DNA of 39,642 bases from assembly GCF_003353015.1 (NCBI RefSeq), contig NZ_QREM01000011.1:965-40606 (forward strand). Direction: 5' to 3'. A program made the translations under genes and the position numbers. The notes beneath the pieces were generated by a model. That model was given only the letters and a program-made list of their open reading frames with translations, did not search any database and was not told the origin of the DNA. This DNA is from Xanthomonas arboricola. Its GTDB lineage: Bacteria; Pseudomonadota; Gammaproteobacteria; Xanthomonadales; Xanthomonadaceae. Of this stretch, positions 12,017 through 13,488 are shown piece after piece (the first letter of the stretch is position 1; each line of letters begins with the position of its first letter).

Positions 12017-12403
12017 CTACTTGCCGATCACCTGCCCAATCCTGAGCAGGTTGCCGCTCTCGTCGACAAGCGCAAATTCCCGCATTCCCCAGGGCTTGTC
12101 GCCGACAGGATCGAGCCTGGGGATGCCGTGCAGCGGAAGCTTCGCCGCATGCATGGCGGCGTAGACCGCATCGACATCGCCAACCCGGATGTAGCACCCC
12201 GCATAGCAGGCAGCAGGATCCAGGTCCGGGTGCGCGAAGAAATGCAGCTCCACCTCGCCACGCGTCAGGATCGCGTAGCCTGCATCGTGCGGATGCGCAT
12301 CGCCAACGAAGCCCAGCCGCCGATAGAAGGCGACGGTGCGCTCGATGGAGCGAGCCGGTAGCAGCGGAATCGTACGGTCTGGCGCCTGGGCACTGGAAGT
12401 CAT
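12017..12403 (-). CDS. VOC-family protein (bleomycin-resistance/glyoxalase fold)
   Basis: A 128-residue protein with two betaalphabeta-beta-beta units. The N-terminal half is IPLLPARSIERTVAFYRRLGF with EVELHFFAHPDLDP. The C-terminal half is CYIRVGDVDAVYAAMHAAKL with WGMREFALVDESGNLLRIGQ. This is the pattern of bleomycin-binding or glyoxalase-like VOC proteins, which sequester or transform small molecules. The start ATG (12403-12401) follows GAGAAAGCG. It is a single-gene unit pointing away from the SymE-like gene and convergent with uxuB. The substrate cannot be told from sequence. Confidence 0.85.
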   Translation of the reverse strand: MTSSAQAPDRTIPLLPARSIERTVAFYRRLGFVGDAHPHDAGYAILTRGEVELHFFAHPDLDPAACYAGCYIRVGDVDAVYAAMHAAKLPLHGIPRLDPVGDKPWGMREFALVDESGNLLRIGQVIGK

Positions 12404-12494
12404 CGCTTTCTCGTGGTGGGAGAACGAAGTCGCCGTCGGGCGCAACGATACGCCATATCCGACAGATCGGTTGAGCGCCGTGCCGTCCTGTCTT

Positions 12495-12515
12495 GACTCG
12501 CTCCAATGGCGAGTC
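12495..12515. repeat. 7-bp inverted repeat (GACTCGC-tccaatg-GCGAGTC)
   Basis: A perfect 7-bp stem with a 7-base loop, the first of a series of hairpins between the VOC gene and the SymE-like gene. It could be part of a leader RNA or an operator; its function is unknown. Confidence 0.5.
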
Positions 12516-12529
12516 GCAAGATCTCCTTG

Positions 12530-12547
12530 CTGCGGCATATTCCGCAG
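12530..12547. repeat. 6-bp inverted repeat (CTGCGG-catatt-CCGCAG)
   Basis: A perfect 6-bp dyad around an AT-rich centre, 14 bases after the previous inverted repeat. The AT-rich middle is what a repressor operator often shows, but it could equally be an RNA hairpin. Confidence 0.45.
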
Positions 12548-12581
12548 CCGGATTTGACAGTCCGAAAACACAAGGCGCACC

Positions 12582-12614
12582 AGCGCCCATTGCACGATGT
12601 CGGCGCTTTTTCTT
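12582..12614 (+). terminator. Intrinsic-terminator-like hairpin with a competing upstream hairpin
   Basis: AGCGCC (12582-12587) pairs with GGCGCT (12602-12607), and CAT (12588-12590) with ATG (12597-12599). The stem is followed at once by a T-rich run TTTTCTTT. The 5' arm GCGCC (12583-12587) can instead pair with GGCGC at 12574-12578 across an ACCA loop. The two folds are mutually exclusive, the geometry of a transcription attenuator. This lies about 160 bases before the SymE-like start codon and would stop a transcript heading for that gene. Confidence 0.5.
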
Positions 12615-12648
12615 TGCCCGATGTCATGTATGGGGCGTGCTCGCTCTA

Positions 12649-12723
12649 TGGCGGGCGGTGTGCGGAGACCGAAAGGTCTGCCGGTACCTTGTGGCCGGTC
12701 TGTCAACCGCACACCGTCCGCCA
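12649..12723 (+). ncRNA. Structured leader element (three-way junction) before the SymE-like gene
   Basis: A 17-bp closing stem joins 12649-12665 to 12707-12723; the arms read GGCGGGCGGTGTGCGG and CCGCACACCGTCCGCC with one G.U pair. Inside are two arms: AGACC-GAAA-GGTCT (12666-12679, a GNRA tetraloop) and GCCGG (12680-12684) with CCGGT (12695-12699). An alternative fold pairs AGACCG (12666-12671) with CGGTCT (12696-12701), lengthening the closing stem and abolishing both inner arms. It ends 39 bases before the ribosome site of the SymE-like gene. The symmetry suits either strand. No named RNA family is recognised. Whether it is a riboswitch-like leader, an antisense target or a mobile repeat is open. 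Confidence 0.6.
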
Positions 12724-12774
12724 CCTTGATTGACAGCGATGTGGCGGGCCTCTCTATCGCACAAGGAGTTCGCT

Positions 12775-13164
12775 ATGACCCGTCCCCACGTAAGCGCACC
12801 TGCACGCCCTGCATCGCCATCCAAGCGCCCTGTTGTCGCACGTACCGGATCAAGGCAGCGCTCGGTGTCCGTCGTGACCGACATGGAGTCGGCGGCAGAT
12901 CCATCGCCAGCGCCCACCCCACCGTTGCGCAAGCCCGGCTTCCGTATTCCCGAGCGGGTCACCATGAGCTGCCAGCACTACGATGTGCGGCGGGCAGAAG
13001 ATGTGGTCGGCTGCGCGGTGCCCAAGCTGCGGCTGTCCGGACGTTGGCTGGAGCACTGCGGTTTCGCGGTTGGCGATGCGCTGCAGGTCACGGTGGGACG
13101 CGGCGTGCTGTTGATCAGCCGCGTGGCACCTGCGCTGCCTGCGGTGAAATCACGCCGAAGGTGA
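12775..13164 (+). CDS. SymE-like toxin-family protein (AbrB-like fold)
   Basis: A 129-residue protein. The C-terminal part, PKLRLSGRWLEHCGFAVGDALQVTVGRGVLLIS (from about residue 83), matches the SymE core: a strand, GxWL-x(2)-GF, GD and a final VLLI strand. SymE of E. coli is an SOS-induced toxin with an AbrB-type fold, repressed by the antisense RNA SymR. The N-terminal 75 residues are basic and Pro/Ser-rich with no known domain, longer than E. coli SymE. The start is fixed by AAGGAG six bases before the ATG. The unusual structured upstream region suggests RNA-level control, as in SymE-SymR, although the element does not resemble SymR. Toxicity is inferred from family only. Confidence 0.78.
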   Translation: MTRPHVSAPARPASPSKRPVVARTGSRQRSVSVVTDMESAADPSPAPTPPLRKPGFRIPERVTMSCQHYDVRRAEDVVGCAVPKLRLSGRWLEHCGFAVGDALQVTVGRGVLLISRVAPALPAVKSRRR

Positions 13165-13177
13165 CGCGCGCGGGTCG

Positions 13178-13227
13178 AGCGCCGTCATGCGGCGCTTGCG
13201 GAACCTGCTCCCTGCATAGGAGCAGGT
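13178..13227 (+). terminator. Tandem perfect hairpins after the SymE-like gene
   Basis: AGCGCCG-TCATG-CGGCGCT (13178-13196) is followed six bases later by ACCTGCTCC-CTGCATA-GGAGCAGGT (13203-13227). The first starts 14 bases after the stop codon. Neither is followed by a U-tract, so they may protect the mRNA end or act as a factor-dependent stop. Confidence 0.5.
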
Positions 13228-13488
13228 GCGCTTACTGCCCTGGTCCCGATTGGAGCAGGAAGCCTGCCCGATCCTGCTTGCGTTGGAGACAGAAGGCTGC
13301 CTGGGCCATCTGCACGCCAGAGCAACGTGTCTGTTCCGAGGCGGGGCAGCGAAGCAACGCCGCGTCGCGCGTGGGTCGCCAGCGGCACAAAGCGTGTTGC
13401 CTGCACCGGCATCTGCAGGGCACCGCGCGACATGACATGCTTGGCCTCATCCACGTCCCACCCCCCTCCGGTTAGGCTTACGCGCCGC
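13228..13488. other. Intergenic stretch without a recognisable gene
   Basis: Open frames cross this 261-bp stretch, but none shows a recognisable family or a convincing ribosome site. The bases just before 13489 are C-rich (CACCCCCCTCC), not a typical ribosome site for the small gene that follows. Confidence 0.6.

Follow-up and report, generated by a model that had tools for sequence, protein, structure and literature searches.

A C4 antisense RNA, a member of the family known from phages such as P1 and P7, lies directly upstream of a chromosomal SymE-family gene in Xanthomonas arboricola, and very probably acts as an antitoxin-like repressor of that neighbour. The RNA was located at 12644-12728 on the + strand of the window (the 39,642 nucleotide stretch of contig NZ_QREM01000011.1 that we analysed), where it matches Rfam family RF01695 (C4 antisense RNA) with 77.9 bits against a cut-off of 45 (E 9.3e-14), the sole over-cut-off Rfam match in a scan of the whole window. 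The match covers the entire 75 nt element (12649-12723) that a preliminary description, made from the letters alone, had called an undescribed regulatory RNA; the element is structured and probably regulatory, but the strong match to RF01695 means it is not undescribed. The gene (12775-13164, + strand, 129 residues) belongs, as that description supposed, to the SymE family (PF08845, 39 bits, cut-off 29), and the C4 model match ends 46 nt 5' of its ATG on the same strand, placing the RNA upstream of the gene and not antisense to its start as SymR is in Escherichia coli.

The closed three-way junction is the minimum-free-energy structure of 12649-12723 (-52.4 kcal/mol), its stability (z -6.78) being equalled by none of 200 shuffles. 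It comprises the three helices noted in the preliminary description: a 17 bp closing stem, P1, in which the inverted repeats 12649-12665 and 12707-12723 pair with a single G.U; the hairpin P2 (12666-12679, AGACC-GAAA-GGTCT) with its GAAA loop; and the arm P3 (12680-12699, strands 12680-12684 and 12695-12699). Two antisense segments are held exposed by this scaffold, b' (CCTTGTG, 12687-12693) in the apical loop of P3, and a' (CTGTCAA, 12700-12706) in the unpaired junction strand. An alignment of 58 distinct C4 sequences (48 from Xanthomonas and ten from C4-SymE loci of other genera, omitting five distinct long-loop sequences and one decayed copy) has 98.5% of its P1, P2 and P3 cells paired, and changes on both sides at 13 of the 27 pairs, compensatory changes of the kind that the preliminary description had named as a check for the stem. 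None of 500 shuffles reached either covariation measure, and controls slid along the alignment left only 33-44% of cells paired. All five P2 pairs have changed on both sides, while in P3 four of five pairs are invariant and the fifth is broken in 11 of the 58 sequences; pairing is complete along the whole helix in 34 (P1), 57 (P2) and 47 (P3) of the 58. The branched three-arm structure is thus real.

The same preliminary description saw correctly that the word GGTCT occurs twice, at 12675 and 12697, and proposed that AGACC might choose between them, so that the element would switch between a branched shape and a long rod. The second copy does exist, and the rod, with AGACC forced onto it, is at -48.3 kcal/mol only 4.1 kcal/mol weaker than the branched fold. 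The alternative helix also has 85.1% of its cells paired, above the values obtained when it is slid by one to three columns, and three of its five measures exceed all shuffles; its covariation is inherited, as the helix shares its 5' strand with P2 and most of its 3' strand with P3. Complete alternative helices are found in 23 of the 58 C4 RNAs (11 of the 58 without G.U), against 57 for P2, the hairpin that would be replaced, one alternative pair is broken in 26 of the 58, and a' would lose its first two bases to the rod. On energy and pair counts across the 58 sequences we set the two-state switch aside: that it should be the regulatory event is extremely unlikely, and its appearance is probably a by-product of one repeated word.

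The branched fold presents b' and a' to sites that the preliminary description overlooked and that hint at what the RNA does; each occurs twice in the immediate surroundings. Every site is an exact reverse complement of its antisense segment over 7 of 7 nt. Site a2 (TTGACAG, 12730-12736) follows the C4 match, and b2 (CACAAGG, 12760-12766) begins 15 nt 5' of the symE ATG and overlaps the Shine-Dalgarno sequence AAGGAG (12763-12768), so that the P3 loop is complementary to the ribosome-binding region and the junction strand to a site just before it. The same two words are repeated upstream as a1 (TTGACAG, 12554-12560) and b1 (CACAAGG, 12569-12575), giving the order a1, b1, terminator-like hairpin, C4, a2, b2, SymE-family gene along the + strand. 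The hairpin, recognised from its fold, resembles an intrinsic terminator followed by a T run (12582-12611); it is not returned by a terminator consensus scan, which allows loops of 3-8 nt only, and its placement between b1 and C4 recurs by eye at sibling loci among those displayed. With the hairpin in this position, transcription could either end early as a short leader or run on through C4 into the SymE message. A permissive Rfam scan of 1 kb (12300-13300) aligned two leader models here below their cut-offs, the c4-a1b1-like leader (RF03163, 12517-12568, + strand, 38.3 bits, cut-off 46.7, E 6.4e-08) and an IsrK-like short leader RNA (RF01394, 12529-12613, + strand, 43.5 bits, cut-off 50, E 7e-08), the latter ending at the terminator-like hairpin. 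As this leader carries the same two sites as the symE message it could compete for C4. A candidate promoter, TTGACT-18 nt-CAAGAT (12493-12522, + strand), was picked out by eye; its second hexamer is weak, both words are present at the 13 C4-SymE loci of the genus, and a sigma-70 consensus scan gave no promoter at its threshold. A palindrome over this candidate promoter (ACTCGC/GCGAGT) was considered as an operator and rejected, since it is not kept in two relocated copies of the module (L055 and L058).

If the loops of C4 are addresses for these sites, loops and sites should correspond locus by locus. Twenty-six of 35 Xanthomonas genomes carry C4, with 70 matches (69 above the cut-off), all of which were analysed with their flanks; a P3 loop is recognisable in 69 of the 70, in 24 different sequences. 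Sixty-two loci remain once a duplicate is merged and six long-loop copies lacking a downstream site are excluded, and in all 62 there is exact pairing of at least 6 nt at each of the four positions, downstream and then upstream for b' and likewise for a' (62, 64, 62 and 68 of 68, in that order, when the long-loop copies are counted). When loops were swapped between loci, always between loci with different loops, pairing of this length was obtained in just 9-25% of combinations (418/3550, 326/3550, 566/3258 and 826/3258 in the same order), and the own-locus mean pairing lay above all 300 permutations in each of the four tests. It is clear that the targets have changed along with the loops across Xanthomonas loci, though the loci are related and the counts are not independent events. 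Among the 23 C4-SymE loci, a' pairs in all 23, the 9 nt segment taking five forms, and swapped a' segments pair in only 24 of 354 combinations downstream and 29 of 354 upstream. The locus's own b' likewise pairs over at least 6 nt, downstream in every case and upstream in 21 of the 23, with b2 beginning 15 or 18 nt before the ATG; swapped b' loops still pair in 218 of 406 and 215 of 406 combinations, because the b' loops are alike within this set, and b' alone is therefore weak evidence there. To see whether C4 copies within one genome avoid a common address, identical addresses were counted; they occur in one of 68 within-genome pairs of C4, versus 83 of 1885 between genomes, the latter figure being inflated by orthologues. 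The six long-loop copies (L072, L075, L078, L083, L084 and L038) are C4 RNAs of 93-94 nt with a longer P3 loop that pair with the upstream leader and have no visible downstream site; they may act elsewhere.

Linkage between this SymE subfamily and C4 is tight. A subfamily profile finds 13 genes in the 35 Xanthomonas genomes, and a C4 match begins 130-131 nt before every one of them, so that the position before symE is kept in relatives, which the preliminary description had named as a supporting sign. Sixteen of 16 C4-linked SymE proteins tested from inside and outside Xanthomonas, that of the window included, match PF08845 at E up to 0.01. One of the 13 loci (L020, apparently the same assembly as L046) retains an intact C4 before a symE broken by an early stop. 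Genome G003 has no gene of the subfamily at the profile threshold, and at what its flank (a DUF2256 coding sequence shortly after) suggests is the equivalent place it holds a decayed C4 (L086, G003:C2:1360025-1360109) that scores 39.6 bits, under the cut-off, with four of 17 stem pairs unpaired against one in the intact L022. This linkage, and the decayed state of C4 in the genome that has no such gene, argue that the RNA serves this gene. A search of the whole family with C4-linked SymE proteins gave 17 matches above a score gap (118 versus 92 bits), of which 14 adjoin C4, two are broken genes lacking it and one is an intact gene lacking it. The intact gene (L230, in G117) has leader sites directly before it, as after a deletion, and one broken gene (L241) keeps traces of the leader; in both (L230:1200-1560 and L241:1250-1520), judged by sequence, C4 and the terminator seem to have been deleted, so that the a1/b1 leader now adjoins the start of symE. 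The survival of symE intact at L230 indicates that C4 is not always needed for the gene to persist. At L055 and L058 the sequence upstream of C4-symE is unlike that of the other genus copies, and this different genomic place indicates at least one relocation of the C4-symE pair.

C4 is known chiefly from phages (PMC5320573), and the SymE gene might be a chance neighbour or passenger of a prophage leftover whose RNA acts in trans on phage antirepressor messages. The make-up of the other loci lends this some substance, for most C4 loci of the genus precede other genes. Sorting the genes downstream of the 70 Xanthomonas copies by BLAST clustering of the open reading frames that start just past b2 gave 37 members of a family of 68-78 residues, 11 of another family, 13 SymE genes, two singletons and seven loci with no usable frame. 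The 68-78 residue proteins (L011, L012 and L013 of the window's own genome and 34 other loci) carry phage resemblances: all three tested match phrog_26166, one clearly and another weakly matches a phage anti-repressor family, and there was no Pfam match for three members and no NCBIfam match for two. The 11-locus family (L016, L017, L019, L034, L039, L040, L041, L050, L051, L067 and L074) encodes proteins usually of 130-155 residues, with two short copies, that share the motif VFFRRL in ten of 11 cases; the two members tested gave no Pfam match. Against a chance association stand the pairing of b' upstream of the SymE start at every one of the 23 C4-SymE loci, with a site that begins 15 or 18 nt from the ATG, and the linkage of all 13 SymE-subfamily genes of the genus to C4. 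The window itself has no phage character in its three scanned neighbours, which encode a glyoxalase-like protein, a mannitol dehydrogenase and, beyond symE, a DUF2256 protein, and searches of viral contigs, phages and plasmids gave no relative of the SymE protein at the limits applied (nor did PADLOC match it at E up to 0.01). We consider the prophage-leftover explanation improbable. The preliminary description had proposed that finding the element scattered between unrelated genes, as a mobile repeat, would count against a regulatory role. This is half borne out: C4 does precede other genes, but the Xanthomonas loci that have a downstream site carry loops matching their own neighbours, the 68-78 residue family among them.

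C4 is present in 40 of 198 genomes of the family, Xanthomonas included, and we examined 63 of the 95 non-Xanthomonas family loci, the remaining 32 coming from genera g29 (29 loci) and g45 (three). Ten of the 63, in three genera (g2, g7 and g17), have symE directly downstream with b' pairing before the start; at one further locus (L157) a SymE-like frame is second downstream, identified by our local profile only. A class-wide sample has C4 in 24 of 369 genomes, two of those being of this family, and among 26 examined of the 44 non-family matches listed there was no C4-SymE arrangement, the local SymE profile being liable to miss distant members. With 6 nt again as the minimum, b2 and a2 both pair in 33 of 37 loci from other non-Xanthomonas genera, and in g29 in only two of 26 (b2 pairs in 6/26, a2 in 10/26), although 25 and 26 of the 26 pair upstream; the test reads each C4 in fixed windows and may locate the loops wrongly in longer copies. 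The low count at both downstream sites in g29 indicates that the mechanism is not uniform over all hits of the C4 model, and slightly lowers our confidence in C4 as the repressor of symE. In g29, six genomes (G103, G129, G154, G174, G191 and G206) have 6-12 C4-model matches each, G221 has one and G062 none, and proteins with the motif DGQPWPE follow C4 in 14 of the 26 loci examined.

The closest known arrangement is the P1/P7 immI region (c4-icd-ant), which has in common with the window the RNA family, the three-armed fold of its C4, and the order a1, b1, C4, a2, b2, start codon. In the P1 annotation a1 lies at 48255, b1 at 48269, c4 at 48343-48419, a2 at 48423, b2 at 48452 and icd at 48470. 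Both a1 and a2 of P1 are TTGACAG, identical to the window, and the a' of P1 C4 has the same seven letters as that of the window, while the b' loop of the window is its own. Spacings too are similar, the a1-b1 distance being 14 nt in P1 and 15 in the window, a2-b2 29 and 30, b2-ATG 18 and 15, and b1-C4 74 and 80. Where icd and ant follow C4 in P1/P7, the window has a chromosomal SymE-family gene and no phage genes among its scanned neighbours. In P1, RNase P frees the C4 RNA, of about 77 nt; its b' blocks part of the ribosome-binding site and its a' provides the specificity (PMC5320573). The Salmonella Gifsy-1 isrK-orf45-anrP region offers the precedent for the leader, having a short terminated RNA and a read-through message of the kind predicted for the window, whose leader is aligned by the isrK model at the sub-cut-off score already given; in its short form IsrK turns on translation of the read-through transcript from its own locus (PMC4825925). 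The gene downstream in Gifsy-1 is antirepressor-like, that in the window of the SymE family.

From these precedents a mechanism can be proposed in which a single promoter would give a leader bearing the decoy sites a1 and b1. Part of the transcripts would stop at the terminator-like hairpin as a short IsrK-like RNA; read-through would produce C4 with the symE message, and processing, carried out by RNase P in P1, would excise C4. The freed RNA would then pair with the symE message, b' covering the Shine-Dalgarno sequence at b2 and a' holding a2, leaving symE untranslated. The short leader, with the same two sites, could mop up C4 and so release symE, IsrK being the precedent for release. Transcription, processing, repression, the decoy role and toxicity of the protein we infer from P1/P7 and IsrK, whereas family membership, layout, exact pairing, loop-site co-variation and linkage come from the sequences themselves. 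Since all parts lie on one strand in one putative transcript, the same elements might instead work only in cis, leader, C4 and Shine-Dalgarno folding within one message as an attenuator with no free antisense RNA, and the Salmonella isrK message does have alternative cis structures (PMC4825925). That C4 folds alone into a very stable compact RNA, and is released by RNase P in P1 (PMC5320573), weighs against this, and we judge attenuation unlikely; repression of symE by a free C4 remains the preferred reading.

Other known systems share single features with the C4-symE module. In the E. coli SymE-SymR pair a PF08845 protein has its synthesis controlled by RNA, as predicted for the window. SymR is encoded opposite symE (PMC1891008), while the window C4 precedes the gene, shares its strand and pairs by two 7 nt segments. 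C4-type RNAs in bacterial chromosomes are already known (PMC5320573), and C4 and isrK are tabulated for Xylella (PMC12189769). The Group 1 sRNAs of Acinetobacter baumannii are of C4 type, reside in bacterial genomes and are apparently processed from longer transcripts, but the portion of that account available to us names no gene targets (PMC5320573), while for the window C4 there are cis sites that match it and one defined gene. Same-strand placement of a structured RNA before a SymE gene is also already in print, for the sRNA-Xcc1-symE integron cassettes (PMC12444791), which involve another Rfam family and other SymE genes than C4-SymE. At 20 loci with such other, better-scoring Xanthomonas SymE genes (L087-L106) C4 exceeded the cut-off at none, and sRNA-Xcc1 (RF02221) was found in 17, upstream on the strand of the gene in 16 and on the opposite strand in L102 (an example is L095:1882-1964, - strand). 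The 8 nt variable loop of sRNA-Xcc1 has nine forms in the 17 loci with a full upstream flank, and in 16 of these 7 nt or more of it match a leader site just before a terminator-like hairpin, compared with 11 of 252 swapped combinations; no matching downstream site was seen at the 16 loci searched, up to 1.2 kb or to the end of the locus. In sequence terms sRNA-Xcc1 therefore seems to be built on a C4-style address principle.

Neither the C4 family nor its fold or mode of action is new, and control of SymE by an antisense RNA is known in E. coli (PMC1891008). What is new is the combination of an address-matched, phage-type C4 lock with a chromosomal SymE-family gene, seen in four of the sampled genera. 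The searched literature, which leaves supplements and most subscription papers outside its scope, yielded no publication on the C4-SymE pairing. Kawano and colleagues reported in 2007 that sequence is conserved before the start of several SymE genes with no transcription-factor gene beside them, and proposed that non-coding RNAs control these genes (PMC1891008); with one such RNA named, and the exact pairing bases given, that idea becomes directly testable. A phage immunity switch seems here to have been re-used to silence a bacterial toxin-family gene. It is a long shot, though one worth stating, that the entire phage immunity circuit of decoy leader, C4 and target was domesticated as a three-RNA toxin-antitoxin system, with C4 modules serving as interchangeable address-coded locks, so that a phage with the same address in its own leader or C4 target could soak up the chromosomal C4 and free SymE; the module would then sense phage and arrest the infected cell. 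More broadly, the arrangement points to transfer of a phage immunity RNA to a chromosomal toxin-family gene, its loops and targets changing together over many copies, so that the C4 copies supply a ready-made set of RNA pairs, some matched and some mismatched.
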